A DNA stretch of 63,436 bases from Alphaproteobacteria bacterium GM202ARS2. Its GTDB lineage: Bacteria; Pseudomonadota; Alphaproteobacteria; GM7ARS4. The DNA is taken from assembly GCA_014323835.1 (NCBI GenBank), contig JACONH010000007.1, positions 1-63,436 on the forward strand, in the 5' to 3' direction. Positions 10,506 through 63,436 of the stretch are shown piece by piece (position 1 is the first letter of the stretch; each line of letters starts with the position of its first letter). The notes beneath the pieces are model-generated. The model was not told the DNA's origin. It saw only the letters and a program-made list of their open reading frames with translations, and did not search any database. The position numbers and the translations under genes are program-made.

Positions 10506-10943
10506 TCACGTTTCGATTCCCTCGATTCGCCTCATGTGCCGTCCCCCCTCGAAGCTGCCACGCAAGAACTCCTGCAAGCAAGCCTTTGCCACCTCGACTC
10601 CCACAAGGCGTTCCCCTAAAGTAAGCACATTGGCATTATTATGCAACCGCGCATAGCGCGCCGCAACCACATCATGACAACACGCCGCCCGCACGCCACG
10701 ATGACGATTCGCCGCCATGCACATGCCTAAACCACTGCCACATACAAGAACACCCCAACCCGCCTTGCCCGACTGCACATGCTCGGCAACACGATGGGCA
10801 TAATCCCCATAGTCCACCGATTGCTCCGCACCATCCGTCCCCACATCAATCAACGCATAACCCTGCTCCTGCAGAAACGCACACAAAACACGCTTCAAAC
10901 TATACCCCGCATGATCACACCCTATCGCAACAACCTTATCCAT
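10506..10943 (-). CDS. rpiB: Ribose-5-phosphate isomerase B (RpiB/LacA/LacB family)
   Basis: Interconverts ribose 5-phosphate and ribulose 5-phosphate, the latter also being the substrate of the DHBP synthase downstream in this operon. Seen are [11 protein letters not shown] at the N-terminus, the catalytic-Cys loop [16 protein letters not shown], and [15 protein letters not shown] near the end. The ATG at 10943 places the conserved start at residue 1; a GTG at 10958 could add five residues. First gene of the leftward operon; its upstream region is the parS-like palindrome cluster. Confidence 0.93.
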
Positions 10944-10966
10944 CCTCAACACCCACACCTCAAAAA

Positions 10967-11250
10967 TGTTTCACGTGAAACAATTCCTATCCCCTCCCAA
11001 ATGTTTCACGTGAAACAATTGCTTTTTTTTCACCCCCCAAAATGTTTCGCGCGAAACAATTGTTTTTTTTACCCCCAAAATTGTTTCTCGTGAAACAATT
11101 GCTTTTTTTTCACCCTCAAAATGTTTCACGTGAAACAATTGCTTTTTTTACCCCCCAATGTTTCACGTGAAACAATTGCTTTTTTTACCCCCCAATGTTT
11201 CACGTGAAACAATTCATTTTTTTACCCCCAAAATTGTTTCTCGTGAAACA
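10967..11250. repeat. Tandem cluster of eight parS-like 16-bp palindromes
   Basis: Eight 16-mers start at 10967, 11002, 11043, 11082, 11122, 11159, 11196 and 11235, spaced 35-41 bases. Five (sites 1, 2, 5, 6, 7) are the perfect palindrome TGTTTCACGTGAAACA; sites 4 and 8 read TGTTTCTCGTGAAACA; site 3 is TGTTTCGCGCGAAACA, also a perfect palindrome. The sequence equals the widespread bacterial parS consensus bound by ParB. Spacers are alike: AATT, a run of 7-10 T, then C-rich sequence and A. The cluster fills the divergent gap between rpiB and the MaoC gene, which contains no gene of its own. Function as ParB loading site is inferred; parA and parB are not in the window. Confidence 0.9.
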
Positions 11251-11319
11251 ATTCCTATTCTCTGCTCTCCTTATATAATCAAAAAAACATGGAATCACCA
11301 TGTTTATTTCCGTTATACC

Positions 11320-11757
11320 ATGCTTATGATGACGCGTGATTCTTTTCTTCAGTTAGCTGTGAGCCAGCGGGCAGAGCGAGTCAATGTGGTCTCGCAGGAG
11401 TCCATTGCGCAGTTTGCTTCTGTCAGCGGGGATAACAACCCGTTGCATACGGATTCGTCTTTTGCCGAGCAAACCATGTTCAAGGGCATTATTGCCCATG
11501 GTTTTTTGACGGCTTCCTTTATTTCAGCCGTCATCGGCAACGATTTGCCCGGTGCTGGCTGTGTCTATCTCAGCCAGCAGTTACGCTTTAAGGCACCCGT
11601 GCGGGCGGGCGACAGCGTGCGCACAGAGGTTACCATAACGGCTATCGATGCCGAGCGTCGGCGCGTCACGCTGGCGTGCGTCTGTTCGGTCGGCAAGCGG
11701 GTTGTTCTCGAGGGCGATGCCTTAATTTACGTGCCTCCCCTAAAGCCCTCTTCTTAA
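11320..11757 (+). CDS. MaoC-like (R)-specific enoyl-CoA hydratase
   Basis: A single hot-dog-fold hydratase of 145 residues. The hydratase-2 motif is clear: FASVSGDNNPLHTDSSFA, containing the catalytic Asp and His, followed by the helix FKGIIAHGFLTASFIS. The family hydrates trans-2-enoyl-CoA to (R)-3-hydroxyacyl-CoA in fatty acid or polyhydroxyalkanoate metabolism; which pathway applies here cannot be told. In-frame ATGs stand at 11320, 11326 and 11329; none has a strong ribosome site. The reading frame remains open leftward through the palindrome cluster, but that extension is repeat-encoded and not protein-like. Confidence 0.85.
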   Translation: MLMMTRDSFLQLAVSQRAERVNVVSQESIAQFASVSGDNNPLHTDSSFAEQTMFKGIIAHGFLTASFISAVIGNDLPGAGCVYLSQQLRFKAPVRAGDSVRTEVTITAIDAERRRVTLACVCSVGKRVVLEGDALIYVPPLKPSS

Positions 11758-11764
11758 GGTGTCT

Positions 11765-12736
11765 ATGCAGCCTGTGCTTCTGCGTGATGCCCCTCTTCCT
11801 GCCACGTTACGTGGCGGCGTTGTCGTCATGGGCAACTTCGATGGCATCCACCTCGCCCACCAGCTGTTGCTCGACAAAGCACGGCAAATCGCCACAGACG
11901 AAGGGCTTGCCCTGTTGATGCTCACCTTCGAGCCCCATGCGCGCCAGTTCTTCTCCAGCGAGCCCGCCCCCTTCCGCCTGATGACCCTCAGCACCAAACT
12001 CGCCTATCTCCGCAGCTTGAACGCCCAAGCAACCCAGCCAACCCCTCTTCGCGCGGTGGTGGCTTTGCGTTTCAATCATGCCCTCGCCTCCATGAGTCCC
12101 ATCCAGTTCATCGAGCGGGTGCTCTGTCGGCATCTCGCTGCCAAGCATGTTCTATCGGGGCGTGACTTTCGTTTCGGCTTGCAACGGCAAGGCACCAGCG
12201 CGCTGCTCGCCCAGCAAACCGCCTTCCGCTATCACGCCCTCGACTCGGTTACCACCGCGGACGGACGCACCCCTATTTCGTCCTCGCTGGTGCGGGCGTG
12301 CTTACGGCAAGGCGATGTCGAAACCGCAACCAATTTACTGGGGCATCCGTGGCAGTGGCGCGGCCACGTCATCAAAGGCGACCAGCGCGGACGCACCATC
12401 GGCTTTGCCACCGCCAACTGCCGCGTGCCACCCCACCTTCTCCACCCCAAAGCCGGGGTCTATATCACACAAGCCTGCCTGCCAGCCCATTCTGCCCAGT
12501 GGTTGCCCGCCCTATCCAACTTTGGTGTCCGTCCCACCTTCGGCACACGCACACCCTTGCTTGAGACCCACATTCTCACCACAGAACAGCTTAATCTTTA
12601 CGGCAAAGTGCTGTATACCCGTTTTATCCGCTTTGTGCGGGCAGAACGCACCTTCGAGTCTGTCGATGCTCTGCGCACCCAGCTGCATAAAGATTGTGCC
12701 TTGGCACGAGAGTTCTGGCAACAACACACTGAATAG
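11765..12736 (+). CDS. ribF: Bifunctional riboflavin kinase / FAD synthetase
   Basis: Makes FMN and FAD from riboflavin, completing the pathway encoded by the leftward rib genes. The N-terminal adenylyltransferase domain has GNFDGIHLAHQ near residue 25 and SGRDFRFGLQRQG; the C-terminal kinase domain starts near residue 195 with GHPWQWRGHVIKGDQRGRTIGF and includes PKAGVY and NFGVRPTFG. ATG at 11765 has TAAGG six bases upstream; a GTG two codons earlier is possible. Followed directly by ileS, the usual alphaproteobacterial order. Confidence 0.95.
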   Translation: MQPVLLRDAPLPATLRGGVVVMGNFDGIHLAHQLLLDKARQIATDEGLALLMLTFEPHARQFFSSEPAPFRLMTLSTKLAYLRSLNAQATQPTPLRAVVALRFNHALASMSPIQFIERVLCRHLAAKHVLSGRDFRFGLQRQGTSALLAQQTAFRYHALDSVTTADGRTPISSSLVRACLRQGDVETATNLLGHPWQWRGHVIKGDQRGRTIGFATANCRVPPHLLHPKAGVYITQACLPAHSAQWLPALSNFGVRPTFGTRTPLLETHILTTEQLNLYGKVLYTRFIRFVRAERTFESVDALRTQLHKDCALAREFWQQHTE

Positions 12737-16133: not shown

Positions 16134-19007
16134 CTAACGCCAGCCTGCCTTTGCTCCCCGAATCAGACCATTTTTTTCCACTTCACTTATTATCCTTTCT
16201 TGGTCTTTCAGAGAGAACTTGGGAAACAGAATTTTCTTGAAATGGTCAAGATTTAACCCTGCCTGACCTTTTTTGTTATACGCGAGTTTCTTAACCTGCC
16301 TCTGAAAAAAAGTGCTCATCGTAAAGTAAAACATGAATTTTTGGAGAACCTTTTTTTCATCAGTACGTATTAAAAACACATGCTCATTCACGCAACAAAC
16401 ATATTTTTCGTCATCAAAATAAGCACATTTTCCCGTTCTAGCACCATCTTTACATACGAGAATATCACCTGTTTGAACGCGACCGCTACTCATAGTTTTG
16501 TAAAATTCACTCGACACAAACCTCATATCAGCCTTTTCAATTTCACCATTTTCGCCAATATGTGCACCTCCAAGGCTGGGTACACCTTCCATATTTTCTG
16601 ACACACCGCCCTTCGGACGCTTGCCTGATTCCAACTTTGTCATATATGGAAACATAACCTCAAGGATGTTTTCTTCATGATGTAGTTTATACAAATCGGT
16701 AAAAATAGCATTTGAAAACTCATTACCTTCTTCATCCGTCCAATCCATTATATCTTTCAACTGAACAACCTTGATGTTATCCGAAAGACGCGATTTTATC
16801 GGGGGAATATCATGTTCGAGCATAGCTTTATAGATGTAACTGTTTACGTATTCATCCGACATAACATCCTCGTCACTATATAGGAACTTCTCTCTTCTTA
16901 ATATTATCCCCTCACTACCCTTACGGTTACTGCATTCGTATCCTAAAAAATGTTTCTCTGCACTTGTCCCTCCTTTATCGGTTTGAACCAATACCACATT
17001 GTTGTTTTCCGCTACTGCATCCTTTATATCTTTCATCTTTACCAAATTCAGTGTTTTTTTTCGCTTCTTCAAAAACAATATCACCGTGTTAATCCCTGTG
17101 GATGGAAAAGCATTGCCACCAAGAATAACTATTCCTCGAATGAAAAAATTCTCAAAAACTAACCTTCTAGCGTGTTCATAAATTCCACTATTATTGAGAA
17201 ATGATTTGGGTAACACGATGCTCGCAACTCCACCTGGTCTAATCAATTGCGCCATGCGTTCGACAAACAGCACTTCAATCTCATCACTTTTATCGCCAAG
17301 TTTATCAAATAGAGAGAAAAGTTTATGACCATCCCTTACGGTTGTCTTGAAACTCTTCACTGCATAGGGAGGATTCGCCACTAATATATCAAAAACAGGG
17401 TTCTCTTTTTCTCCTTTTTTTGCTTTCAATTTACCTGTGTAAGAATCGGTTGAAAAAGCGTCAATGCCCGACCCATGTACCACCGTAGCTTCGCCGTCTC
17501 CATTCAGAAACGATGAAAGTTTAGATGTCTTCGCTAATCTATAATCTCTTTCAATCCCATAGATAAAATTCCCTGCCCACGCAAATTCGTCCGCCAAATA
17601 TCCTTTCAGCTTTTTCTCTTGAGTAGGTATCAAATCTGACAATTTCAGAGATTTGACTACTTGTTGAACAGCATCCATGCTTTCAATAATGAAGTGCCCA
17701 CTTCCGCAAGCATAATCAATTATGTTAGGTAAAAAATCTGTTTCTTTTTTTCTTATTTTTTCCTGGATAATCTCAGCTACAGGAAGACTTCGAATCATAA
17801 ACCTAACCAATGGTATTGGTGTGAAAAACTGTCCTGATTCCTGTTTGAAACCTGCATTCAATAATAGCTCAAAAAATTCTCCCAGAAATTGTTGCTTATG
17901 TGAATACCTAATTTTCCATCCCTGCAAGAGTTTTACCATCTCAATTACAACTCTGGCGTTTTCCTTAAATGACTCCTCATTGTAAACTTCGATAAAAGCA
18001 AACTCCTGATTTTTGTAAAGACGAAGTTCAGTGATTATTCTTTTTAATTTACTATCATCACGCAACTCCAAATCATCAGCACTATAGTCAGTTACATTCT
18101 TTTTCAGATAAAGCTTCATACCTTCCTTAAACAAGTCATTCAATCGACCTATAAGAATTTCGTCACTGTCACGCCCCTCAACCCATTGAAATTTAAGCTC
18201 TGTGTTTTCACTACAATTCTCATCGACAATCTTACACAAGAAAAGATTGAATATCTTATTGAACGCATTTCCCTTGTCTGAAATAACATTGTGCCTCAGA
18301 ATTTCTAGAAACTGTGAATATATTCTCTTACCATCTTCCTGTTGCAATTGCTTCAGGTCCTTACACAATAGGGGCTTGGTTTTAATATTATACGTATTAA
18401 CTTCTTTTTCAAATATGCCGTTGGGAAGAAATTGTTTGTTCCAACGCTCAGTAGCAGCTTTGACCGATTGAGTGTTTCTAATACTTTCATCAATCGGAAC
18501 TATATTGTTCTTGTATTCAATTTGACCGTCGTTGTTTACCTCGGATGTGTATAAACAAAGATAATCAGCATTACGATCCTGTTGCCAGTATGAGAACAGT
18601 TGTCCCCCTTCCTTCTCAACCATAATTTGTGCTTCTTTATCAAATTCTGATTTAAACGTTTTGCACTCAATCATCAGATAAGGAGATTCATTATTTTTTT
18701 GCTTTACTAATATATCCAGCCTTCCCTTGTTGTTTTTTCCCAAAGCCCAATTCTTCTCCAACTCGATTCTGTCCGGAGAGTAGCCTTTCTCTAAAAGTCT
18801 GTTCACACACTCTAAAACAACAAAATTTTCATCATTTGAAAAATTTGTTGTGGTATGAGCATAAACCTTGATTTGTTTCGGATAGTTAATTGTTGATTGA
18901 GCTAGGGATACTACTATCTTGCAGTCGTGTTTCTCGTAATACTTTTCAAAGGTATGTGCCTGCTCCACAAAGCCAAGAGCCCCTAGCAATTGATGAATAT
19001 TAACCAT
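16134..19007 (-). CDS. Single-chain restriction-modification enzyme (type IIG/IIC-like: nuclease, N6-adenine methyltransferase, specificity domain)
   Basis: 957 residues with three parts. N-terminal PD-(D/E)XK nuclease of HsdR_N style: GRLDILV (Asp98) and LMIECK (Glu114, Lys116). Central N6-adenine methyltransferase: GQFFTP (392-397), SAM motif DYACGSGH (431-438) and NPPY (545-548). C-terminal HsdS-like target recognition region from about 740, with GDILVCKDGARTGKCAYF and a closing LSLKDQERIISEVEK-type helix. One polypeptide could both cut and methylate one recognition site. The gene is markedly AT-richer than its neighbours and interrupts the conserved lspA-lipoprotein-M16 order, so horizontal acquisition is likely. 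No separate hsdR, hsdM or hsdS is nearby. Target sequence cannot be predicted. Confidence 0.85.
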   Translation of the reverse strand: MVNIHQLLGALGFVEQAHTFEKYYEKHDCKIVVSLAQSTINYPKQIKVYAHTTTNFSNDENFVVLECVNRLLEKGYSPDRIELEKNWALGKNNKGRLDILVKQKNNESPYLMIECKTFKSEFDKEAQIMVEKEGGQLFSYWQQDRNADYLCLYTSEVNNDGQIEYKNNIVPIDESIRNTQSVKAATERWNKQFLPNGIFEKEVNTYNIKTKPLLCKDLKQLQQEDGKRIYSQFLEILRHNVISDKGNAFNKIFNLFLCKIVDENCSENTELKFQWVEGRDSDEILIGRLNDLFKEGMKLYLKKNVTDYSADDLELRDDSKLKRIITELRLYKNQEFAFIEVYNEESFKENARVVIEMVKLLQGWKIRYSHKQQFLGEFFELLLNAGFKQESGQFFTPIPLVRFMIRSLPVAEIIQEKIRKKETDFLPNIIDYACGSGHFIIESMDAVQQVVKSLKLSDLIPTQEKKLKGYLADEFAWAGNFIYGIERDYRLAKTSKLSSFLNGDGEATVVHGSGIDAFSTDSYTGKLKAKKGEKENPVFDILVANPPYAVKSFKTTVRDGHKLFSLFDKLGDKSDEIEVLFVERMAQLIRPGGVASIVLPKSFLNNSGIYEHARRLVFENFFIRGIVILGGNAFPSTGINTVILFLKKRKKTLNLVKMKDIKDAVAENNNVVLVQTDKGGTSAEKHFLGYECSNRKGSEGIILRREKFLYSDEDVMSDEYVNSYIYKAMLEHDIPPIKSRLSDNIKVVQLKDIMDWTDEEGNEFSNAIFTDLYKLHHEENILEVMFPYMTKLESGKRPKGGVSENMEGVPSLGGAHIGENGEIEKADMRFVSSEFYKTMSSGRVQTGDILVCKDGARTGKCAYFDDEKYVCCVNEHVFLIRTDEKKVLQKFMFYFTMSTFFQRQVKKLAYNKKGQAGLNLDHFKKILFPKFSLKDQERIISEVEKNGLIRGAKAGWR

Positions 19008-19099: not shown

Positions 19100-19417
19100 C
19101 TATCCAGCCGTCATTACCTCGACAAAATCTTTTTCGATGCGGCTACGGAACGGCTCCCGCAACGTATGCCAGTCAAGCACATCCACTCGATACGGCAGTA
19201 TACTCTCATCAAAAGCATCTTTCAGGGCGTTGATAACCTTCGCTTCTACCCTGCCCTCGCCTCGCAAGCACAAATCCACATCAGCATAACGCACCCGCAC
19301 CAACCGCTTTGCCCGCGAGCCAAACGCATAAACCCGCACGCCCCGCGGCACATGACGCCTCAAAATAGCACGCACCAACGCAACGTATTCTGGCTCTAGC
19401 TCTATCGCCTCAGTCAT
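19100..19417 (-). CDS. Minimal nucleotidyltransferase (MNT), antitoxin-like
   Basis: 105 residues with the polymerase-beta-type nucleotidyltransferase signature: AFGSRAKRLVRVRYADVDLCL (Gly33-Ser34, Asp46 and Asp48). The ATG at 19417 overlaps the stop of the upstream HEPN gene as ATGA, which implies translational coupling and obligate partnership. In characterised HEPN/MNT pairs the MNT protein neutralises the HEPN RNase, in some cases by AMP transfer to it; whether that occurs here is not known. Last gene of the leftward three-gene operon in the accessory insert. Confidence 0.85.
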   Translation of the reverse strand: MTEAIELEPEYVALVRAILRRHVPRGVRVYAFGSRAKRLVRVRYADVDLCLRGEGRVEAKVINALKDAFDESILPYRVDVLDWHTLREPFRSRIEKDFVEVMTAG

Positions 19418-19839
19418 CCCTGCTTTATCCTCGCCCGCAACGTCGCACAAACAAAACGCGCCTCCTGCAAAAAATCAGGCACCACAGAAAAAACCTCCTG
19501 TGCCTTGCCATCATCATACACATGACTCGTCTTATTACGTTTGTCCCGATACGCCAGCCACGCTTTGACTTCGCCCTTCACCAAGCCACGCACCAAAGAC
19601 AGACGAATCAAACCCTGAAATGACAACTCCCGAACATCCTGCATATTCGCCTCCGTCATCTCAAGAAAACGCCTCAACATCCTGTGACTCACCTCATACG
19701 TATCCGTAAAAGCCTTAATCGACGCCGTCTGAGTCATACGCCTATTGTCAGGATTATTCTTTTCTTTTTCTGCCTGTGCCAAGAACAATTCCAACTGTGC
19801 AACGGCTTTCTCCAGAGGGCTAATGTCCAGTTCAACCAT
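19414..19839 (-). CDS. HEPN-domain protein, HepT/HI0074-like (nucleotidyltransferase partner, putative RNase toxin)
   Basis: 141 residues, all-helical in appearance. The HEPN RNase motif is present: Arg101-x4-His106-x-Tyr108 (RNKTSHVY). The sequence matches the nucleotidyltransferase-substrate-binding (HI0074) family in length and in the SIKAFTDTYEVSHRMLRRFLE region. Start at ATG 19839, seven bases after the stop of the PH-domain gene; the frame is open upstream but only through that gene. With the downstream MNT gene it forms a toxin-antitoxin-like module; toxin activity is inferred from motif and pairing. Confidence 0.83.
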   Translation of the reverse strand: MVELDISPLEKAVAQLELFLAQAEKEKNNPDNRRMTQTASIKAFTDTYEVSHRMLRRFLEMTEANMQDVRELSFQGLIRLSLVRGLVKGEVKAWLAYRDKRNKTSHVYDDGKAQEVFSVVPDFLQEARFVCATLRARIKQG

Positions 19840-19846
19840 CCCACAC

Positions 19847-20377
19847 CTACCGATAATCGTGCTTCTTTGCTTGCATGACCGCTTCATCGATAAAACGTTT
19901 ATTACGCATCGGCTCATCGATGTCACGGAACACCACACGAGACCCACCCGTGCCGGTCATCTCCAACGTGCCATAGCCCAAAATACGACCCATAACCGAT
20001 TGATTGATGTCCACCGTCTCCACCTTAGACAAACGCATCTCGTCCGTCTCCCGACGAATTAAGCCCTCCTTGTAAATGACACGATGATCCGTCAAGCCCA
20101 TATGCACCGTCAACCAACGAATAAAAGAATGTAGAAACTCCCATACACCCCACCCCACCAAAAATAAACCACCATAAGAAATAACCCATTCACTCACTAA
20201 CACCATGCCCACGTCCCCCCTCAATAAAGGCGAAAAAACACCAGACACAAACAAAATATCCAAAACGATGCCCGCACAAACAAACAGACTCGGCGTCAAC
20301 CACAACGCCCAACCGCTCAATGAATGAAGAGCAACAATCTTCTCTTCACTGGTGACAACTTCTTCAATATAACCCAC
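19847..20377 (-). CDS. bPH2-domain (DUF304-like) membrane protein
   Basis: 176 residues: two hydrophobic helices (about residues 25-80) followed by a bacterial PH domain with the family's HRVIYKEGLIRRETDEMRLSKVETV and GYGTLEMTGTGGSRVVF strands. Start chosen as GTG at 20377 because GAGAGG lies six bases upstream; the frame can be read from a TTG at 20422 without such support. Function of the family is unknown; YdbT/YdbS-like proteins are membrane-associated. It leads the operon with the HEPN/MNT pair, and its close spacing (7 bases) suggests co-expression. Confidence 0.8.
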   Translation of the reverse strand: MGYIEEVVTSEEKIVALHSLSGWALWLTPSLFVCAGIVLDILFVSGVFSPLLRGDVGMVLVSEWVISYGGLFLVGWGVWEFLHSFIRWLTVHMGLTDHRVIYKEGLIRRETDEMRLSKVETVDINQSVMGRILGYGTLEMTGTGGSRVVFRDIDEPMRNKRFIDEAVMQAKKHDYR

Positions 20378-23751: not shown

Positions 23752-26700
23752 TTGCCCCATGGTGCGAAATCGACTATTGAGAACACTCGCCGTTCCTCGA
23801 ATATTAAAGGAATTAATGACCTCCGCCGTCAAGTGGATACATGGCGCGGCGATGACCTCTATGCTGGTGTCAGCAAAACGACTCGCACGCTTTTGCGTCA
23901 CTGGTTTTGTAGCGACCACACGATAGAACGTCCTGATGGCACAGGCTATCCTTTTCATTATTACTTTTGTCAACGGGAAGCCATTGAGACGCTGATTTAT
24001 CTGATAGAAGTGTGCGGTGTTAACAATCTGTATAATCTCATAGAACATCAACACCAGAGCCAAGCTGTTTGGTCTGAGCCATCCCCTGGCAAGCCTTTGA
24101 TATTCAATGATAAAGAAGGGGCTCGTCCTGCCCTGCTCGATGACAACACGCCACAAAGTATCGAAGCCCTCGGCATTGACCCCGATAATGACAAGTGGGG
24201 GCGTTATGCGTTCAAAATGGCAACAGGGAGCGGTAAAACCAAGTGCATGAGTATGGCTCTTGTCTGGAGCTATTTTCACGCCTTGTTTGAGCCCGATTCA
24301 CCGATGACAAAGCATTTTCTTGCGGTTGCTCCGAGTCTGACCGTGTATGAGCGTCTACGACAGGACTTTTACCCTGAGGACGGGCGCGATATTTTTCAGA
24401 CCGACCCGCTTATCCCTCGAGAATGGAAGCACCACTGGCATTTATCGGTGTGCTTGCAAGATTCTGCTTTATCCTATTCTGTTACAGATGATACGGGTAT
24501 GCTTTACCTTACCAACATTCATCGATTACTGCCCTCACGTAAGAGCGATGATACGCGGGAAGGCATCGATGTTTTGGGCAAAGCACCGCCATCTTCTACG
24601 CGTAAAGCCATGCGTGACAGTTTCCACGAGAGTTTATTTTCTCTTAAACGGCTCATGGTATTGAACGATGAAGCCCACCACGTATGGGATCCTGATTCAG
24701 CTTGGAATCAAGCCCTAAGAACCATTCACGACACCATCTACGACCGACAAGAACGCCAACCCCGTAGCGGTATTATTGCCCAGCTGGATTTTTCTGCCAC
24801 ACCAAAAGACAATAAAGGCAACCTGTTCCGTCATATTATCTGTGACTCGCCCTTAAGCGAAGCCGTCGATGCGGGTATTGTCAAAACCCCTATCATTGGC
24901 GAGTCGAAAGAGCTCAAGCATGATAATCACGACGACGCGGCGATACGCTATCACCACCACCTAACCCTTGGCTACCAACGTTGGCTTAAAAGCAAAAAAG
25001 AGTGGGAAAAATGTGGTGTCATACCCCTGATGTTTGTCATGTGTGAAAACACCGATGCCGCGAATCAAATCACCAACGTCCTTAATGCCGATAAGAACTT
25101 TGCCGACCTCAACGGCAAAGTCATTAACCTACACACCCGCCTAAAAGGCAGAATAAAAAAAGTCGGCACAGGAGAAAACCAACGCTTGGAATTCATCGAA
25201 AAAGAAAGCGGTATCTCCGATGAGGATTTACGTCAGTTGCGCCAACTGAGCCGAGACCTCGATAGCCCGCAAAGCCCCTATCGCTGTATTGTCTCGGTGC
25301 TGATGCTACGGGAAGGCTGGGACGTGCGCAACGTCACCGTCATTGTGCCGTTGCGTCCCTATACGGCAGAATCACGAATTCTCCCTGAGCAAACCTTAGG
25401 GCGGGGCTTACGCCGTATCCTGCCTCACCAAGATGTCGAGGAAACTGTTGTTGTCATTGATCACCCGCGCTTTGTTGAAATTTATGATGAAACGATGGTG
25501 CAGGAAGGCTTACCTTTCACAGTCCAGAGTCTCAATAAGGTGCGCCCAACCACAATTACTATTTACGTCGATGAGAAAAACAAAGATACGCAAGCCCTCA
25601 ATATCACGATTCCACGCACCAAAGGTGCTTACCAGGAAAACAAGAAGCCCCGCTCTCTTACAAAGCAAGACGTCGACCAAGCATGCAAACAAAGCGGGTT
25701 TGCCCCGCTTAAGCTTGGCAAAAAACGCAGTGACGTTGTTAATTATCAGGGATACCACTATCTCACGCGAGAACTGGTGGAAGAAATGAAACTGCACATG
25801 CCCCTACTCAATCAGGGAATAACCGGGGCTATCAGTTTTTATAAACGGGAGCTGCGACTCGCGTGCGGTCACTTGCCAGATTTTGCATGGATTGCCCCGC
25901 ATATAAAATACTTTGTCACCCACCATCTTTTTGGCAAACCTATCGCTGAGACCAACGCCCAGCTCAGTGTCCGCTTAGGCGATGATGATGTGCGGGAAAG
26001 TATCCTGCGCGTGTTTGTGCCTTTGGTGAATGAACGATACTATCGACCAAACCCGCCCACCTTCAACACATCTAATGCGTTAAAAAGCTATCGCCCCTAT
26101 CAAGCCAGTTACAGCGAAAAACGCCCGGCTATCCCTGGCAAGAAAACGCTGTTTAATTTGGTTCCGTGTGATTCTAGCCTCGAACAACGCTTTGCCCAGT
26201 TTATCGATGGTGCTAGCGATGTGGTTGCTTTTGCCAAAAACGCGGGACCGCAAGCCTTGCATGTTAACTACTTTAACCGCTTGCGCCGTCCTTGCATTTA
26301 TATACCCGATTTTATTGTCCGTCTCGATGATTCAAGGTGCGTCTTGGTCGAATTGAAGGGACAAGAAGACCGTGACGTTGGGCTCAAGGTCGACGCAGCA
26401 GAGTCTTGGTGTAAGATTATCTCGAAGGCAACAAAAACACCATGGCAATTCCTTTATGTTCCTGAGCACGTGTTACAGGCAGCCAAAACCGCGCGCTTGG
26501 CTATGCTGATGTCGACCTGTGATACCTACAAAAAGGAACTCCTCGAAGAAACAAAAAACAAAAATGCAACGCAACGTCTGCCCTTCGATGCGCCTCTCGA
26601 TAATCAACGGGGCGAAACCTTTTACAACAAAAAACGCATGGCTGCCCTTTCCCCTAGAGGCACAAAAGCCGCGTTAGATGCCTATGACCTCTATGATTAT

Positions 26701-27237
26701 CTCAACAACAAGGAAGACACCGACAGCTATGCCCCTGCCTTTCAACCGCTTTTGCTTCCTCTTGACCATGTCGCCGACAAGATTATCATCGCCAGCATTA
26801 GACGTCACTTACCCGACCACCCGCAAGAAGTGAGAATGTTCTATGACCAGAGCTTGTATCATGCCAAAGATAAAAAGGAGGAAGGATTCATTAAAAAAAT
26901 TAGGATGGGCTTGTTCTATGGCAATTTTCATTCGGCATTAGGGATTCTTTCTACCTGTATCGATTATGCCTTAAACCGTGAGACAGAAAGGGAGGGTGTG
27001 CTGATGGCTTTACAACACAGCTTGAAACCCGTTTTAACCAATAAACGCACGTTGTGGTGCCTACAGAGCGTTAATCACTTCCGCAATCACTATGTTGCCC
27101 ATTATAGTGGCAAAGCAAAACCGACTGAGGAACAAGTCAAGTGGATGCTACGCTTATGGGTGGAAACTCTGGGCATACTGGAAACACTGTTAGGTGACCT
27201 GACAAGAGAAATAAACAAAGCGCAACAATACCGATGA
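23752..27237 (+). CDS. Type III restriction enzyme, Res-like helicase-nuclease, with extra C-terminal HEPN-like region
   Basis: 1161 residues. SF2 helicase motifs: Walker A MATGSGKT (156-163), DEAH (306-309), DFSAT near 347, then the second RecA domain with VSVLMLREGWDVRNV and EQTLGRGLRR. A PD-(D/E)XK nuclease follows: YIPDFIV near 850 and VELKGQ near 868. Residues about 1030-1161 form an additional helical tail with RNHYVAHY (Arg1111-x5-His1117), resembling a HEPN RNase motif; this tail is not needed for a Res subunit. Start is TTG at 23752 with AAGGG five bases upstream; no ATG fits. The stop overlaps the methyltransferase start (ATGA). The order Res before Mod is the reverse of classical type III loci. 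Confidence 0.88.
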   Translation: MPHGAKSTIENTRRSSNIKGINDLRRQVDTWRGDDLYAGVSKTTRTLLRHWFCSDHTIERPDGTGYPFHYYFCQREAIETLIYLIEVCGVNNLYNLIEHQHQSQAVWSEPSPGKPLIFNDKEGARPALLDDNTPQSIEALGIDPDNDKWGRYAFKMATGSGKTKCMSMALVWSYFHALFEPDSPMTKHFLAVAPSLTVYERLRQDFYPEDGRDIFQTDPLIPREWKHHWHLSVCLQDSALSYSVTDDTGMLYLTNIHRLLPSRKSDDTREGIDVLGKAPPSSTRKAMRDSFHESLFSLKRLMVLNDEAHHVWDPDSAWNQALRTIHDTIYDRQERQPRSGIIAQLDFSATPKDNKGNLFRHIICDSPLSEAVDAGIVKTPIIGESKELKHDNHDDAAIRYHHHLTLGYQRWLKSKKEWEKCGVIPLMFVMCENTDAANQITNVLNADKNFADLNGKVINLHTRLKGRIKKVGTGENQRLEFIEKESGISDEDLRQLRQLSRDLDSPQSPYRCIVSVLMLREGWDVRNVTVIVPLRPYTAESRILPEQTLGRGLRRILPHQDVEETVVVIDHPRFVEIYDETMVQEGLPFTVQSLNKVRPTTITIYVDEKNKDTQALNITIPRTKGAYQENKKPRSLTKQDVDQACKQSGFAPLKLGKKRSDVVNYQGYHYLTRELVEEMKLHMPLLNQGITGAISFYKRELRLACGHLPDFAWIAPHIKYFVTHHLFGKPIAETNAQLSVRLGDDDVRESILRVFVPLVNERYYRPNPPTFNTSNALKSYRPYQASYSEKRPAIPGKKTLFNLVPCDSSLEQRFAQFIDGASDVVAFAKNAGPQALHVNYFNRLRRPCIYIPDFIVRLDDSRCVLVELKGQEDRDVGLKVDAAESWCKIISKATKTPWQFLYVPEHVLQAAKTARLAMLMSTCDTYKKELLEETKNKNATQRLPFDAPLDNQRGETFYNKKRMAALSPRGTKAALDAYDLYDYLNNKEDTDSYAPAFQPLLLPLDHVADKIIIASIRRHLPDHPQEVRMFYDQSLYHAKDKKEEGFIKKIRMGLFYGNFHSALGILSTCIDYALNRETEREGVLMALQHSLKPVLTNKRTLWCLQSVNHFRNHYVAHYSGKAKPTEEQVKWMLRLWVETLGILETLLGDLTREINKAQQYR

Positions 27238-29159
27238 CACAAGAAAAAAAACCATCCTGGGGACCGGATAACCCGCACCCGCTGTCACAGAAAAAAGCCG
27301 AGTTCGTCTGGGAGGGCAAATATGATGTCTATGGCAAACGCTATCAACCGAATAGAGCGAAACTTGTGCTACCGCTACAGAAAGTAGAAAGCATCGATGA
27401 GCCACGCCAACGCTTAGAGACCCCGATACAGAGGGGCGAGACTGCGTCTATGTTCGATGAGAGTCTGACGTATGATGATTTTCGTAACCTGCTTGTCTGG
27501 GGCGATAATAAAATTGCTCTGGCGACGCTGTATGAAAAGTTTGCCCGTAAGGTAGACCTGATTTATATCGACCCGCCTTTTGATGTGGGGTCTGATTTCT
27601 GTGCCAAACTCGCTGTTGGTGACGAGGGGGAACAATTAGAAAAGCAACAATCTTTGATGGAGACTGTCGCTTACCGCGATACATGGGGGGAAGGCACGGA
27701 TTCGTATCTAGGCATGCTAGCTGAACGATTTGTGCTCGCCCGTGACCTGCTAACAGAACGTGGTAGTTTTTATCTACATTGTGACCAACGTGTTGTTGGC
27801 TACATAAGACTGATATTGGATGAAATTTTTGGAAAGGACAATTTCAGAAATGAAATTATATGGTGCTACACTGGCCCTTCAAATACAAAAGAGTATTTTC
27901 CAAGAAAGCATGACTCCATTCTAGCTTACGCAAAAACAAAAGATGTCATATTCAATTCTGATTCGGTACGTTTACCTTATAGTGAATCCTTTGCTAAGAG
28001 GCGATTGTACACAGAAGGAACATCAGGAATTACTGGAGGCTACGCTGAAAAAGGAAGAACAGATGAAGAAGTAAAAAAGGAATTTAGCAAAGGTAAGTTA
28101 GTTGAAGACTTCTGGACGGATATACCCGCTGGAGGACAAATATCGCAAAAAGAACGACTCGGCTACCCTACACAAAAACCTGAGAAGCTGTTAGAGCGTA
28201 TTATCAAGGCATCGAGTAACGAGGGGAGTTTGGTATTGGATTTTTTTTGTGGTTCCGGGACGACTCTGGCGGTAGCGGAAAAGTTAGGGCGGCGGTGGAT
28301 TGGCTGTGATTTGGGGCGGTATGCTATTCATCAAACCCGCAAGCGTTTGATTGGTGTTCAGCGTGAGTTGTATGAGAAAAAGGCGCGCTATCGTCCTTTT
28401 GATGTATACAATCTTGGGCGTTATGAGCGGCAGTGGTGGTTGCAAGCCCGTGGGCATCATGGTGAGGCAGACCATCGCCGCGTGGTCTTAGAGTTCTTTC
28501 AAGCGGTGCCTTATAGCGAACCGCCGTCGCTCTATCTGCATGGGCATAAAGACGAAAGTGCTGTTTACGTCCATTCTGTTGCTTCCTCTCTCGACAATGA
28601 TACCTTAGATAAGATAGCCGAGGCAGCAGAGGCTTTGAAAATACGCCAAGTCTATTGTCTAGCGTGGGAGTTCACAATGAACATCAAGCAACGCATCGAA
28701 AGCTTGCGTGCCAAGCATAACGTCTCGTTACGCTTGAAGTATATCCCAAGAGAAATCATGGAAAAAAACTACGACTCCAAAAACCCACCCGTCTTTTTTG
28801 ACGTAGCCTACATCGAAGCCAAAACCCTTACAACAAAACACGAAGGCAAAAAAGCATGGAACGTGCAACTGACCGATTTCATCCCGAGCCTCGAGGAAAT
28901 TTCACCAAAAGAGCTGGAACAAGCAGGGCAACGCAATCCCTTTGACTTCATTGACTTTTGGGCTGTCGACTTCGACTGGCAGGAGACTCGCCCTTTCAAT
29001 CATCACTGGCAAGCTTATCGCACAACCAAAGACCGCAAGCTGACTCTCACCAGCACACGAGATTACATCTACAGCGACACCAACCCGCACACTATCTGCA
29101 TCAAAGTCATCGACATCTTCGGCTGCGACACATCAACAACCTTGAACATTAAGCCGTGA
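27234..29159 (+). CDS. Type III DNA adenine methyltransferase (Mod-like)
   Basis: 641 residues, beta-class order: catalytic motif DPPF (113-116) precedes SAM motif I (LDFFCGSGTT, about 333-342). The region between them, which determines target specificity in Mod proteins, is encoded by visibly AT-rich DNA (about 27790-28200), while flanking parts are GC-richer, suggesting exchange of the recognition domain. The C-terminal 250 residues are a family-specific region (RYERQWWLQARGHHGEADHR). It should methylate one strand of an asymmetric site and, with the upstream Res protein, restrict unmodified DNA. The final 420 bases switch to C-rich codons. Confidence 0.9.
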   Translation: MTQEKKPSWGPDNPHPLSQKKAEFVWEGKYDVYGKRYQPNRAKLVLPLQKVESIDEPRQRLETPIQRGETASMFDESLTYDDFRNLLVWGDNKIALATLYEKFARKVDLIYIDPPFDVGSDFCAKLAVGDEGEQLEKQQSLMETVAYRDTWGEGTDSYLGMLAERFVLARDLLTERGSFYLHCDQRVVGYIRLILDEIFGKDNFRNEIIWCYTGPSNTKEYFPRKHDSILAYAKTKDVIFNSDSVRLPYSESFAKRRLYTEGTSGITGGYAEKGRTDEEVKKEFSKGKLVEDFWTDIPAGGQISQKERLGYPTQKPEKLLERIIKASSNEGSLVLDFFCGSGTTLAVAEKLGRRWIGCDLGRYAIHQTRKRLIGVQRELYEKKARYRPFDVYNLGRYERQWWLQARGHHGEADHRRVVLEFFQAVPYSEPPSLYLHGHKDESAVYVHSVASSLDNDTLDKIAEAAEALKIRQVYCLAWEFTMNIKQRIESLRAKHNVSLRLKYIPREIMEKNYDSKNPPVFFDVAYIEAKTLTTKHEGKKAWNVQLTDFIPSLEEISPKELEQAGQRNPFDFIDFWAVDFDWQETRPFNHHWQAYRTTKDRKLTLTSTRDYIYSDTNPHTICIKVIDIFGCDTSTTLNIKP

Positions 29160-32502: not shown

Positions 32503-33240
32503 TCAGTTCATTTTCTCTATCGCATTTTTTGCCAGATCGTTGACAAGCTGTTGTAGTTGTTCAGGTGATAAGGCATCAAGTAAACGTACGCCACCTTCGA
32601 AATTAAGGCGTTTTAACCATTCACGATAGGCTTCTCGTTTAAGCAACCCGTCTCCTTTCTCGAATGATTCTCGTAACCGTTTATAGATGCACGTGAGTAT
32701 ACCAATATTTGTTTCCATTGTTGGTCGCTCAAAAACACTTGCGAATATATCTTGCTCTAACAGCATAACCTCTAGAAATTCATTGGGTGCATCGGGAGTA
32801 ACTTTATGTGCAGCATGCCCTAGCCACCAGAGACGTGAAATTGCGTTTCTACTCTTCAACGACCTTATATCAGGCAAAAAATAACGTGACGCTATTCTTC
32901 TTTTGACATCTTCTTCTGAGGAACCCTTTATCCAGCGATTATAGGTGTAGTCTTTTGCCTCAATATGGGTCATGTAAGCCCACACTCGCTCATCACTTGC
33001 CTGTTTAGGTGAAAGATTTTTCAGATTCTCATAGACCTTTAATGCATTCTCCTTGTCATCTTCCGGCGCGTAAGAAGTCAAGCTGAGAGAGCCAGTGCAA
33101 GAGATACTCGACTTTTTTATTTTCACCATATCAGTGAAAGATTTTATCGTGCTAAAGTAACAGTCTTTATTTTTCTCAATGTTACTGAGCAACGTCGCAA
33201 CGGAATTCTCGCTTAGATAATAGACAGTATCAGTCATCAT
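32503..33240 (-). CDS. Unknown protein of the methyltransferase/GHKL ATPase operon (possibly DUF6339-like)
   Basis: 245 residues, soluble, mostly helical by appearance. A middle segment NLSPKQASDERVWAYMTHIEAKDYTYNRW and the later NAISRLWWLGHAAHK are the most conserved-looking parts and recall, from memory, the uncharacterised DUF6339 family; this is not verified. No nuclease or ATPase motif was seen. It overlaps the upstream gene by 11 bases and is the last gene of the four-gene operon. The DNA is AT-rich compared with the housekeeping genes. Role in restriction is suggested only by context. Confidence 0.6.
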   Translation of the reverse strand: MMTDTVYYLSENSVATLLSNIEKNKDCYFSTIKSFTDMVKIKKSSISCTGSLSLTSYAPEDDKENALKVYENLKNLSPKQASDERVWAYMTHIEAKDYTYNRWIKGSSEEDVKRRIASRYFLPDIRSLKSRNAISRLWWLGHAAHKVTPDAPNEFLEVMLLEQDIFASVFERPTMETNIGILTCIYKRLRESFEKGDGLLKREAYREWLKRLNFEGGVRLLDALSPEQLQQLVNDLAKNAIEKMN

Positions 33241-34090
33241 TAATAATCTTATCGGTGACAGTTAAGAACTCTTGCAAGCTTCCTTCGAGGAGTTTTTGAG
33301 CATCAGATAAACGATTTTTCTCTTTATCACTTCCGGGCAAAGCCAAATTTTGCTCTTCTAATTTGGCACAGAAAGCGCGCACCCACTTCAATTCTTCATC
33401 AATGCCGTCTCCATCTTTTTCATCGGCATCTAACTCATGGAGCAAGCTGACTATGATCGGGAAATAAATCCCTTGCATCAAAAGTGCATCTCCCTTCGGT
33501 GCTGAACGCATCAATTTCAGCTTATCAAGAAAAGATTTTGAGACAGAAATAATGATATGATTATAGTCTCTATCGTAACGATATTCATCGTCTCCCATAG
33601 CATTATCCACTTCAATCTCAAAAACTGAGCCCAAATGCACCTTGGAAGTAACATAAAGATTTTTTTCTTCGTCTATAGCCAGTACGGTACCACTCGCAAA
33701 GTCAAAAGACTTTTTACCGAATTCTGGATGTATGAGGGGACTTGAAAAACCCTTTATGTCAACACAACTGACAATATAAGGTGAAATTGTAATTTTTCCG
33801 CCGAGAATCCCTTCTTCTACAAAGTATGCAAATTGATTGTCAAAACCTGATTCAAGATGACGAAAACCCGTTTCTATAGATTTTATAAGAACGGCATAGC
33901 ACGCTTGTTCTTTTTTTATCAATTCAACAAGGGGGGCATCCTCGGAGAGGTCAAATTCAAATGTGAAATGTATCCCATCTTTTTTCGATTGAGACTCAAG
34001 CGTAAATTGAAAGTCATAGCCACCCTGATAATCATCATTATCTCGGCGCAACACTGGATGTGGAAAGACTTTATTCGAATTATATTGCAT
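33230..34090 (-). CDS. Unknown protein of the methyltransferase/GHKL ATPase operon
   Basis: 286 residues of no family I recognise. The N-terminus NKVFPHPVLRRDNDDYQGGYDF is distinctive; the first 130 residues look beta-rich, followed by VLAIDEEKNLYVTSKVHLGSVFEIE and a helical, charged C-terminus (DADEKDGDGIDEELKWVRAF). No signal peptide, membrane segment or obvious catalytic motif. It overlaps the ATPase gene upstream by 11 bases and the 245-residue gene downstream by 11 bases, so the three are translationally coupled. It is a candidate effector or recognition subunit; this is inference from its place only. Confidence 0.6.
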   Translation of the reverse strand: MQYNSNKVFPHPVLRRDNDDYQGGYDFQFTLESQSKKDGIHFTFEFDLSEDAPLVELIKKEQACYAVLIKSIETGFRHLESGFDNQFAYFVEEGILGGKITISPYIVSCVDIKGFSSPLIHPEFGKKSFDFASGTVLAIDEEKNLYVTSKVHLGSVFEIEVDNAMGDDEYRYDRDYNHIIISVSKSFLDKLKLMRSAPKGDALLMQGIYFPIIVSLLHELDADEKDGDGIDEELKWVRAFCAKLEEQNLALPGSDKEKNRLSDAQKLLEGSLQEFLTVTDKIINDD

Positions 34091-35900
34091 TTATGAACTC
34101 CACAATTTGCGCAGAATTAGTAGGAAGCGGTTCCGACGTTTTAATCTCAACACTACAGTGCGTTCCTTTCTCTACCTCAAGTGGCAGTGAAGGAGAACAA
34201 TCCTCAATGTCTATCTGTGTTTGCCCTGTGTCCCCGGCTATCGAAAGACGCAAGCTCCTAATTCTCCCTGTTTCATCCGGTGTGAAATAGACAATATAGC
34301 AATTTTTGTCACTTTCTTTCGACACAAGACGAATATTATTGACGGGATATAAATGTACTTTTCCTGGTACTCGTTTAGTACCCCCCTTGCCACCACGACC
34401 TTTTCCCTTGCCACTATTCCCTCCGACCCCACCATTCTTCCCACCAGACACTTCGGTAGGTTCTGAGCCATATAAGCGACGTCCAGGCTTTTTTGGAGGC
34501 ATGAGATAAATTTCCTGTGGACTTTCTAGAGGCGGGTCAGATGACTCATCAGGCGAACCCCCATCATAATCAGGGTCAGGGAAATATTTAGATAAGTCAG
34601 TAATATTAGACTTTTTACTGAGCTCAATTTCTCTGCCGGCAATTTCTTTTATCTTTGTTCGAATCCATTCTATCAGTTTATTAAACTGCTTTTTTTCTTC
34701 AGAATCAAGACGTTTTGGGTGGAACTCATTGTGTGCTGGATTTTCCATGCTACGGAGAATCTTATTGCCCTTTGGGTCACAACACCTAAATGTAGCATAA
34801 AACGAATCTACACCGGGCCATCTGCGTAATTTTTCCTGCCCACGCGTTATCAACATACCAGAACGGAAGAAACTGACAGTCTTATCCCCATCTTCACAGA
34901 CCCGAATGCGCAGTTCGCACATGCCAAAGCCGTCAATTTTTTCTTCAATAATTTCATCTTTAATACCAGTCAGTATTTCCCAATCGATTTTTGCTCGATC
35001 AACAAGACCACCATCATCTTTAAGGACGTTGAATATTTCTGACAACGTACTCGTATCGATGAGGTACAGATTGTCCTTTTTGCTATCTTTTTCAGGGGCG
35101 ATTAGAACCTCCAAGTCTTTGTCATGGATAGCAAGGAAGTAATTGGCGATAATATTTTTCGCTATTTCGTGCCTCCATTTCTCCTTTTTATCGAAACCAG
35201 CAATCCAAACAGCTGTGCCTAGTTTAGGCTCACCACTGTTTGTATCCCTAAAGAATGGCGGAATATCAGCCATGGTATCCACAAATTGGCAATTGTTCTT
35301 GTAACCATAATAGCCAATTCCTTGGTATCTTTCTTCTTTACCGTGTGAAACAAGTATAGATTTGCCCTGAAAGCGTTCGCATATTTTTTGCGATTCTTCA
35401 TCTTTATAGCAACTCCAATAGAATACTGTTCGAAGGTTGGAAACTGCAAAAATTGCATTTTTCCCTATGCCAAATGACCCACCGGCAGTATCATTTTCTT
35501 TATGGCTTGTTCCTTGTTTTTTGACTAATGCATCCCAGTTAGCTGGCTGAAGCCCGATTGTATTGAAGTCACGTACGCAGAGATATTCGCTTTTTTCTAT
35601 TTCTCTTTTTGCTTTCTTAAATTCGCTTTCGCCTTCTTTGTCTTTCAGTTCTCCTATGCAAAGATTAATGGTTGGTTCTAACTCCCTCAACACTTCAATC
35701 CCCTTATCACGTGATTCAATAAGTTTAAATTCGACAGTGACTGCTCCGTCTTTCGTTGCTGCATCTAGAGAATTCTGCACCGTTTCGCGTGCCAAACTCC
35801 CATAGGGCTCGCCACTATAAATTTCTGTTGCCGCATGTCTATAGCCTTGTTCTTCCCCTCCACCAGTAGGGGGAAATTTCCATCCTTGTTTTTTTGACAT
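34080..35900 (-). CDS. GHKL (MutL/MORC-like) ATPase of a restriction-type operon
   Basis: 606 residues. N-terminal GHKL ATP-binding fold: N-box ETVQNSLDA (Glu39, Asn43, Asp46), a DFNTIG segment at 111-116 in place of DxGxG, and the G2 lid GGSFGIGKNAIF (140-151). A charged region follows, then a glycine-rich linker near residues 485-515 and a beta-rich C-terminal domain. ATG at 35900 has GGGAG eight bases upstream; a second ATG at 35906 is too close to that site. MutL/MORC-like ATPases of this type are known partners of DNA methyltransferases in mobile restriction-like loci. Here the partners are the cytosine methyltransferase 61 bases upstream and two unknown proteins downstream. Confidence 0.8.
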   Translation of the reverse strand: MSKKQGWKFPPTGGGEEQGYRHAATEIYSGEPYGSLARETVQNSLDAATKDGAVTVEFKLIESRDKGIEVLRELEPTINLCIGELKDKEGESEFKKAKREIEKSEYLCVRDFNTIGLQPANWDALVKKQGTSHKENDTAGGSFGIGKNAIFAVSNLRTVFYWSCYKDEESQKICERFQGKSILVSHGKEERYQGIGYYGYKNNCQFVDTMADIPPFFRDTNSGEPKLGTAVWIAGFDKKEKWRHEIAKNIIANYFLAIHDKDLEVLIAPEKDSKKDNLYLIDTSTLSEIFNVLKDDGGLVDRAKIDWEILTGIKDEIIEEKIDGFGMCELRIRVCEDGDKTVSFFRSGMLITRGQEKLRRWPGVDSFYATFRCCDPKGNKILRSMENPAHNEFHPKRLDSEEKKQFNKLIEWIRTKIKEIAGREIELSKKSNITDLSKYFPDPDYDGGSPDESSDPPLESPQEIYLMPPKKPGRRLYGSEPTEVSGGKNGGVGGNSGKGKGRGGKGGTKRVPGKVHLYPVNNIRLVSKESDKNCYIVYFTPDETGRIRSLRLSIAGDTGQTQIDIEDCSPSLPLEVEKGTHCSVEIKTSEPLPTNSAQIVEFINAI

Positions 35901-35961
35901 AACCATTGCTCCCTAAAGCTAAAGCACGTTCTATAACTTAGAATATTAAAAACCGTCAAGT

Positions 35962-37035
35962 TTAACCTTTTCTATTCTTCATATTCTCGAATACGTTCAT
36001 GCACTCTAATGCAAGCAAATATGCAGTCGGCACGCAGACTGAGTTGCCAATGAGTCGATACTGCTCGTTTTGCGGAACATTTTTAGGAAATAGTCTATTA
36101 TTTTTCTCGGTAATCCCTTCCATGCCTTGTAGACTGGCACACTCTCTAACTGTCAATTTTCTTATTCCCCATTCATCTTTGATGAAAGGCACATTATGCC
36201 CGCCTAAGCCCATGTTTGCAGTCAGGGTCGGACATCTATCATTATGTTTACCTCGTGCATAGTAGCGTCTTATCTGATAAATGCTATCGGGGTTTCCTGT
36301 CTTCTGGATTTCCTTATCAATTAAACCACGATACTTGTTGGAAACTGGTAAATAATACTCTTCACCGGGGTTTTTGCTCCTATCTATAAAGCTCGTTAGA
36401 GGTAAAACCTCTTTGGTAGACGACGGAAAACGAAAAGGATTACCATGAAAAACAGACCGCGAGGTAGCAACCATAAACAAACGATTGCGATCTTGTGGAA
36501 TGCCCCCATAATCACAAGAACTCATTACCTTGCGGGAACTAGAAGAAAACCAGTAGCCAGCACGACGTATCTCACGCTCGATTTCAGAGAACCAGCTCCC
36601 TCTTTCTCCATAGAGCAGATAAGGAACATTCTCCAGAACCAGTAGTGCTGGGCGATTTTCCCCAAATTCTCCAAGAATACGAATAATCTCATAAAACAAG
36701 CGTCCGCGTGGGTCGGAAAATCCTTTGCGATTTCCTGCCTGTGAAAAACTCTGACACGGAAAACCTGCCACTAGCACATCAGGTGGTTGCAAATCGTGGC
36801 TACTAACTTTTAGCTCTCTTATGTCCATCTCATATAAATTTACGTCATCATGACGGAAACGGAAGCTCGCACAAGCCGAGTCATCCAACTCGTTTGCCCA
36901 GATGGGACTAAAGCCTGCAAGCCGAAAAGAAGTGCAAAAATTGCCTATACCTGCAAACAAAAAAGCAACGGTAAGAACGCTCTGTCCATTCCCCTGTGTA
37001 ATCATGTGCGCGTGATTTGTAACCGTATCTTTCAT
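35962..37035 (-). CDS. DNA (cytosine-5-)methyltransferase
   Basis: 357 residues with the ordered C5-methyltransferase motifs: I FLFAGIGNFCTSFRLAGF, IV GFPCQSFSQAG (catalytic Cys94), VI LENVPYLL, VIII QIRRYYARG, IX RKLTVRECASLQGM and X QYRLIGNSVCVP. The target recognition region between VIII and IX is short. No Vsr nicking gene and no recognisable cognate endonuclease is adjacent; instead a GHKL ATPase and two unknown genes follow on the same strand. First gene of that operon; it probably protects host DNA from whatever the other three do. Confidence 0.92.
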   Translation of the reverse strand: MKDTVTNHAHMITQGNGQSVLTVAFLFAGIGNFCTSFRLAGFSPIWANELDDSACASFRFRHDDVNLYEMDIRELKVSSHDLQPPDVLVAGFPCQSFSQAGNRKGFSDPRGRLFYEIIRILGEFGENRPALLVLENVPYLLYGERGSWFSEIEREIRRAGYWFSSSSRKVMSSCDYGGIPQDRNRLFMVATSRSVFHGNPFRFPSSTKEVLPLTSFIDRSKNPGEEYYLPVSNKYRGLIDKEIQKTGNPDSIYQIRRYYARGKHNDRCPTLTANMGLGGHNVPFIKDEWGIRKLTVRECASLQGMEGITEKNNRLFPKNVPQNEQYRLIGNSVCVPTAYLLALECMNVFENMKNRKG

Positions 37036-62987: not shown

Positions 62988-63436
62988 ATGACAACGAAAG
63001 ATACGCCCTCGAACAAGGATAAAGCAACGGCACAGGACATTCTGCAAGCCATCGACAAGATGGTGCAACAGACTCCGCATGGGTCGCAGACGCACAAACC
63101 GTCGTCGATACCCTCGCCTTCGCCCTCCCCATCGCCGTATCAGTCCCCGCACCAGTCCCCGCACCAGTTTACGTCTGGCTCGCCGTCTTCGTCTCCTATT
63201 GGCACCCCTCGCCCCTCGCCTCGCCCCTCGCCCTCCTCGCCCTCCTCGCCCAACCCACAAGGACAGCCCCCCTCAGCCTATCACCAGCAACAAGACTCCA
63301 TGCGGATGGTTGCCTCCTCCATCGTTGAACACAACACACTATCCCCCCCGCGGGCACCCTCACAGGCACCCGCACAAGAACGTAGTGTACTTCCAACGTT
63401 GCGTAAGTTGGCTCAGACGTCGCCTCCTCCCCCCCC
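62988..63436 (+). CDS. popZ: PopZ-like (DUF2497) polar organising protein, partial at right edge
   Basis: Open frame from ATG at 62988 to the window end, at least 149 residues. A charged N-terminal helix ATAQDILQAIDKMVQQ resembles the EEILASIRRII region of PopZ/DUF2497. A long Pro/Ser-rich linker follows, partly coded by CCTCGCCCT-type repeats (63180-63255), then SMRMVASSIVEHN and LPTLRKLAQ. The conserved C-terminal oligomerisation region would lie beyond the edge. Place after tolC is that of DUF2497 genes in alphaproteobacteria (often followed by valS). In Caulobacter PopZ tethers ParB-parS at the pole, of interest given the parS cluster at 10967. Call rests mostly on context. Confidence 0.68.
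   Translation, partial: MTTKDTPSNKDKATAQDILQAIDKMVQQTPHGSQTHKPSSIPSPSPSPSPYQSPHQSPHQFTSGSPSSSPIGTPRPSPRPSPSSPSSPNPQGQPPSAYHQQQDSMRMVASSIVEHNTLSPPRAPSQAPAQERSVLPTLRKLAQTSPPPP

Follow-up and report, generated by a model that had tools for sequence, protein, structure and literature searches.

Dispersed arrays of parS-type palindromes in the genome of Alphaproteobacteria bacterium GM202ARS2, probable loading sites for a single ParB

The window considered here is the whole stretch of DNA that was analysed, 63,436 nucleotides forming contig C7 of the assembly of Alphaproteobacteria bacterium GM202ARS2 (G000; 1.83 Mb, 49 contigs, 90.5% complete). A pattern search of the window located eight parS-type palindromes at positions 10967-11250, five of them perfect, which follow one another at steps of 35-41 bp in the divergent gap between a leftward rpiB gene and a rightward gene with a MaoC domain. 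The positions, the steps, the gap and the variant copies (one TGTTTCGCGCGAAACA at 11043 and two TGTTTCTCGTGAAACA at 11082 and 11235) are exactly those described in a first-pass annotation of this DNA. The features of the locus are as follows.

10506-10943, minus strand: rpiB (LacAB_rpiB, PF02502; Pfam), left neighbour of the array
10944-11325, no strand assigned: divergent intergenic gap of 382 bp that contains the entire array
10967-10982, no strand assigned: parS site 1, TGTTTCACGTGAAACA, perfect (pattern search, as for sites 2-8)
11002-11017, no strand assigned: parS site 2, perfect
11043-11058, no strand assigned: parS-type site 3, TGTTTCGCGCGAAACA, the version dominant in genome G085
11082-11097, plus strand: parS-type site 4, TGTTTCTCGTGAAACA, with one variant half-site
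11122-11137, no strand assigned: parS site 5, perfect
11159-11174, no strand assigned: parS site 6, perfect
11196-11211, no strand assigned: parS site 7, perfect
11235-11250, plus strand: parS-type site 8, TGTTTCTCGTGAAACA
11326-11757, plus strand: MaoC-domain gene (PF01575; Pfam), right neighbour of the array
11759-12736, plus strand: ribF (FAD synthetase / riboflavin kinase), within the conserved neighbourhood

With up to three mismatches allowed, the window holds nine matches against 0.21 expected from shuffles of the window. The spacers of the array have a mean likeness of 77% and two are identical. The earlier suggestion that the array grew by duplication and then drifted is supported. 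Helical phasing of the site spacings is weak (vector length approximately 0.25 at periods 10-11). The gene order ribH-ribBA-ribE-ribD-nrdR-glyA-rpiB, followed across the gap by maoC-ribF-ileS, is common to G000 and G001, the only other genome of the same family (45-79% protein identity). The comparison of this gap with a relative, which had been recommended as a check, found the syntenic rpiB-maoC gap of G001 to be approximately 150 bp long with zero parS sites, and the window gap has thus gained its sites relative to the nearest relative.

The array in the window is one of many. The whole assembly of G000 contains 141 exact TGTTTCNCGNGAAACA sites, 133 of them identical or near-identical copies outside the window, against 0 for a reversed control pattern, and 148 sites when one mismatch is allowed. 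Seventy-eight of the 141 are perfect palindromes and all others differ only at positions 7 and 10. When all 141 sites were fetched and mapped and those less than 1 kb apart were merged into loci, 43 loci of one to eight sites resulted, distributed over 20 contigs that total 1.41 Mb, or approximately one locus per 33 kb. Fourteen of the 43 loci are found less than 2 kb from the end of a contig. The assembly is thus probably interrupted by arrays, and the real count of sites is likely above 141. Both G000 and the comparison assemblies are drafts with unclosed contig order, for which reason the sites are reported by contig and not on an origin-to-terminus map. The chromosomal parAB locus (on C41, a contig of 3.7 kb) carries three sites and the dnaA contig C5 also carries sites. 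The spread over 20 contigs and 1.41 Mb does not correspond to confinement to an origin-proximal part of the chromosome. The first-pass annotation had named as evidence against itself many equal sites dispersed elsewhere together with none near the origin; the dispersal was found, but sites are also present at parAB.

Contigs C9, C14, C16, C19, C21, C24, C27, C28, C30-C34 and C37-C39 are free of sites and show a foreign tetranucleotide signature (r 0.53-0.64 versus 0.85-0.98). These contigs are probably bin contamination missed by the listed contamination figure of 0.34%. Since the siteless contigs are mostly foreign by signature, practically every authentic contig longer than 25 kb bears sites. 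A terminus exclusion zone was considered for the apparent 400-kb site-free part of the assembly and was rejected because most contigs there have the foreign signature and are most likely such contamination.

The 16-mer core is under strong constraint in G000. At the 14 fixed positions (all except 7 and 10), 141 sites match fully, seven have one mismatch and two have two, and at three mismatches the count is at chance level (21 versus 28 in the control), while the spacers drift by 15-35%. In the duplicated S8 protease genes, none of 42 fixed core columns is changed, compared with 19.3% of the other columns (P approximately 1e-4). The half-sites combine at positions 7 and 10 as A+A (78), A+T (42), A+C (10), G+G (9), G+C (1) and A+G (1). 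Sites with T or C in both half-sites are absent (shuffle P = 0.002), and the variant G is mostly symmetric, with nine GG sites (P < 1e-4). Such a pattern would be expected if a dimeric protein reads two half-sites. Neither T7-A10 or C7-G10 pairs nor compensatory stem changes, all of which an RNA hairpin would accept, occur among the sites.

The placement of the sites was evaluated with gene calls made by a simple hexamer-based program instead of a curated annotation, and on these calls only 11 of the 141 sites lie within genes, while 90% of the sequence is coding. The median distance of a site is 18 bp to the nearest stop codon (3' end) versus 117 bp to the nearest start, 19 of 22 tandem-gap loci lie closer to the stop codon of the upstream gene (P = 0.0009), and the loci are over-represented in convergent gaps (8 of 22, P = 0.007). 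Four loci lie in frame within genes, in the linkers of two S8 proteases, in an M23 peptidase linker and in a loop of MnmG, and the peptide inserts encoded in these four genes are VSRET/FHVKQ. The G000 mnmG gene contains one parS site inside an in-frame insertion of approximately 15 residues, NTPPPPHNVSRETS, and the loop is without the insertion in G001, G085 and G199; this site has therefore been gained relative to the nearest relative. The two variable bases of the core are synonymous third positions in the VSRET frame. A peptide-level cause for the conserved inserts was rejected because the same two bases also vary in non-coding copies and the other synonymous positions are invariant.

Spacers are similar inside arrays and dissimilar across arrays, except for the A/T-rich bases adjoining the core and, in occasional cases, ATTCCTAT; T-runs are frequent beside sites. 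BLAST of the flanks among loci returned only gene duplicates and three matches of 21-25 bp. The likeness of spacers within arrays, together with the lack of flank homology between loci, is consistent with sites that were seeded one by one and then duplicated in tandem on the spot. In one region (L163, G000:C22:4017-17994), a parS array follows each of two adjacent giant genes of 1709 and 2865 codons, and the flanks of these arrays are duplicated.

A single ParB_N protein was found in a search of G000, a genome that is approximately 90% complete. It is encoded by a parA-parB pair at C41:1988-3708 and is an intact, complete ParB with ParB_N, HTH_ParB and ParB_C domains, whose best PDB match is the ParB chain 6t1f, aligned over residues 6-265. 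SMC-like proteins are encoded in all four genomes (G000, G001, G085 and G199). In Caulobacter numbering, the G000 ParB keeps R173, N178 and R204 and has S179, T184 and A201. Residue 201 is alanine in the ParB of G000 and G085, and glycine in G001 and Caulobacter. In the series of Caulobacter ParB variants switched toward Noc (PMC7383237), residue 201, as arginine, recognises the base beside the central CG. The G000 sites vary only in the base pair on either side of the central CG, the very base recognised by residue 201. The association of A201 with the expansion is a correlation from two genomes only, and some clostridial ParBs share A201. As a sufficient private mark of genomes with many sites A201 was discarded, because it occurs in a few ParBs of clostridia whose parS sites are limited to doublets and also in the site-free G199.

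Among the other genomes of the class, 58 were counted and hold 0-9 sites each, mostly 0-3, and the three sites of G001 lie around its mnmG-parB region. Across 385 genomes sampled from the class, the number of paired sites is 74 in G000, 36 in G085 and 0-4 in the others. G085, which belongs to another family, contains 135 sites with the centres GCGC (98, derived from strand counts) and GCGT/ACGC (37), and none with ACGT. The sites on its parAB contig are GCGC, the same version as its genome-wide sites, and the nine G085 contigs examined share one signature with the parAB contig. The copies of G085 are partly decayed (59, 11, 18 and 13 with zero, one, two and three mismatches, respectively) and are located in longer mosaic repeats, and constraint is weaker there than in G000. 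Considering the different families, the different site versions and the site-poor relatives, two separate expansions in the class, in G000 and in G085, are likely. In G199, the family mate of G085, no parS-type site was recognised in the genome, and its ParB (L195, G199:C1:1469630-1471372) combines A201 with R204L at a DNA-contact residue, which suggests that the centromere sequence has changed in the family to which G085 belongs.

Based on these observations, the array in the window probably (at a probability of roughly two in three) belongs to a set of parS loading sites that extends over the genome, serves the single ParB of G000 and is kept for ParB binding. In the proposed course of events, short palindromic seeds would appear at many 3'-intergenic places through a copying step and could then multiply in place via tandem duplication. 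ParB may bind the resulting arrays, load as a CTP clamp and slide into the flanking DNA. ParB, and perhaps SMC, would thus be nucleated at dozens of chromosomal places instead of one origin-proximal region, with a possible effect on segregation or nucleoid folding, and the sites would be retained where ParB binding is useful or at least tolerated. A more far-reaching form of this proposal, which is tentative, is a polycentric (holocentric-like) chromosome in which ParB loading at many arrays drives segregation and compaction and which may have arisen twice independently, with the local parS version and with ParB A201. In textbook bacteria, parS sites lie near the replication origin.

The G000 sites share with the chromosomal parS of Caulobacter and B. 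subtilis the same 16-bp palindrome TGTTNCACGTGAAACA, the ParB architecture and sites at the mnmG-parA-parB locus. In contrast to the 1-24 origin-proximal sites of known systems, however, G000 has at least 141 sites in 43 loci on nearly all authentic contigs. Up to 20-23 parS sites near the origin were reported for Streptomyces coelicolor and Listeria innocua (PMC7333895). In Pseudomonas aeruginosa, hundreds of ParB contacts with half-parS sites were proposed to shape the nucleoid (PMC7022226). Those contacts resemble the G000 sites, the putative ParB-binding places of this genome, in being many and dispersed; they are genome-common 7-mers with narrow ParB peaks, whereas the G000 sites are full palindromes in arrays that are absent from relatives. 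No comparable case of full parS arrays dispersed across a chromosome was found in the literature searched. In Caulobacter, extra parS clusters are harmful at mid-arm and are tolerated mainly within approximately 500 kb around the native cluster (PMC5815017), so that as many sites as in G000 would call for a change in ParB, in dosage, in ploidy or in the mode of segregation. The distribution contradicts the view of parS as confined near the origin, and two natural genomes with more than 130 sites each provide a direct test bed for the origin-confinement rule: either a chromosome can support ParB loading along its length, or ParB has adjusted to the spread of copies of the site that it recognises.

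Several of the observations would also be expected of a selfish or neutral palindromic repeat of the REP or RPE kind that copies itself into tolerated places, with parS as its ancestral source and ParB binding not being what keeps it. This explanation is rather unlikely for G000. It accounts for the 3'-intergenic placement, for the insertions in the S8 protease and M23 peptidase linkers and in the MnmG loop, and for the tandem growth of arrays, all of which count against the loading-site interpretation, as do the decayed G085 copies and the near absence of flanking homology across loci that could account for seeding. REP/BIME and Rickettsia palindromic elements are likewise interspersed palindromes, intergenic near 3' ends and in some cases in frame within genes, and the in-frame palindromic inserts in four G000 genes are a likeness in this trait to the Rickettsia elements that implies no membership of that family. 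On the other hand, the core in G000 is conserved far beyond the spacers as a strict parS core, and, apart from the gene duplicates and the three 21-25 bp matches, the loci share the 16-mer and a few A/T bases, approximately 16-24 bp only, without the longer unit common to dispersed REP/BIME copies. A Y1/RAYT-type transposase (PF01797) had no match in G000, G001 or G085 while control profiles did match, and the lack of both this transposase and common flanks weakened the idea of a transposon-borne repeat. The palindromic-repeat reading may hold in G085, where decay is stronger and the copies lie in longer mosaic repeats.

It is improbable that the sites serve a Noc-like role, in which ParB or another protein spread over the nucleoid would block division or tether DNA rather than segregate it. 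The dispersed layout resembles that of the B. subtilis Noc sites (NBS), which are also many and parS-related, and parS and NBS differ at two bases, one of which is the variable base beside the central CG (PMC7383237). However, the sole ParB_N protein found in this genome, whose approximately 90% completeness leaves room for a second one, has the ParB-type R173, no lysine at 179 or 184 and no R201, in contrast to the Q173/K179/K184/R201 of Noc, and the G000 sites form tandem arrays and carry G, not A, at position 2. Furthermore, Noc is limited to Firmicutes (PMC7383237).

Intrinsic terminators, with the palindrome as an RNA hairpin followed by a T-run after stop codons, would explain the proximity to 3' ends (19 of 22 tandem-gap loci), the enrichment of convergent gaps and the common T-runs, but are very improbable. 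The T-runs ignore the direction of transcription (20 downstream versus 38 upstream; by loci, 8 versus 9), which largely refutes this function; in addition, stems show no compensatory changes, the would-be loop contains an invariant CG, the predicted hairpin of one window unit is weak (-4.7 kcal/mol), and the array of the window occupies a divergent gap; up to eight copies would also make little sense for a terminator. That the window array is a single compact plasmid-like centromere, as the first-pass annotation had proposed and as its compact, regular eight-site layout might suggest, is scarcely credible, because 42 other loci exist, the array lies in conserved chromosomal synteny (rpiB / maoC-ribF operon neighbourhood) and not on a plasmid-like replicon next to par genes of its own, and no comparable array was present in 72,556 plasmids searched. 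The underlying point that chromosomes do not usually carry a clustered array is sound, yet tandem chromosomal clusters were already known from Myxococcus xanthus, with 22 parS sites near the origin (PMC3899335).

A PopZ-like gene had also been proposed for the far end of the window; the frame in question (62988-63434) is truncated and has no PopZ match in Pfam, and the assignment is unconfirmed. In addition to the array, the window contains a type IIG restriction-methyltransferase (16134-19007), a type III restriction-modification pair (23752-29159) and a pair of nucleotidyltransferase and NTase_sub_bind genes (19100-19947) that is possibly a toxin-antitoxin module. Three genes at 32503-35906, in a low-GC stretch, match the candidate defence system PDC-M33 A/B/C (PADLOC) and are adjoined by a DNA cytosine methylase gene (35962-37035). 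Perfect parS sites also stand in close pairs on 37 IMG/VR contigs, three of which (L200, L209 and L223) have more than one pair, which possibly reflects hijacking of ParB by viruses or host contamination. Among the matches listed, a Rhodospirillales MAG contig (L070) carries at least three tandem perfect parS sites, with parB on the same short contig.
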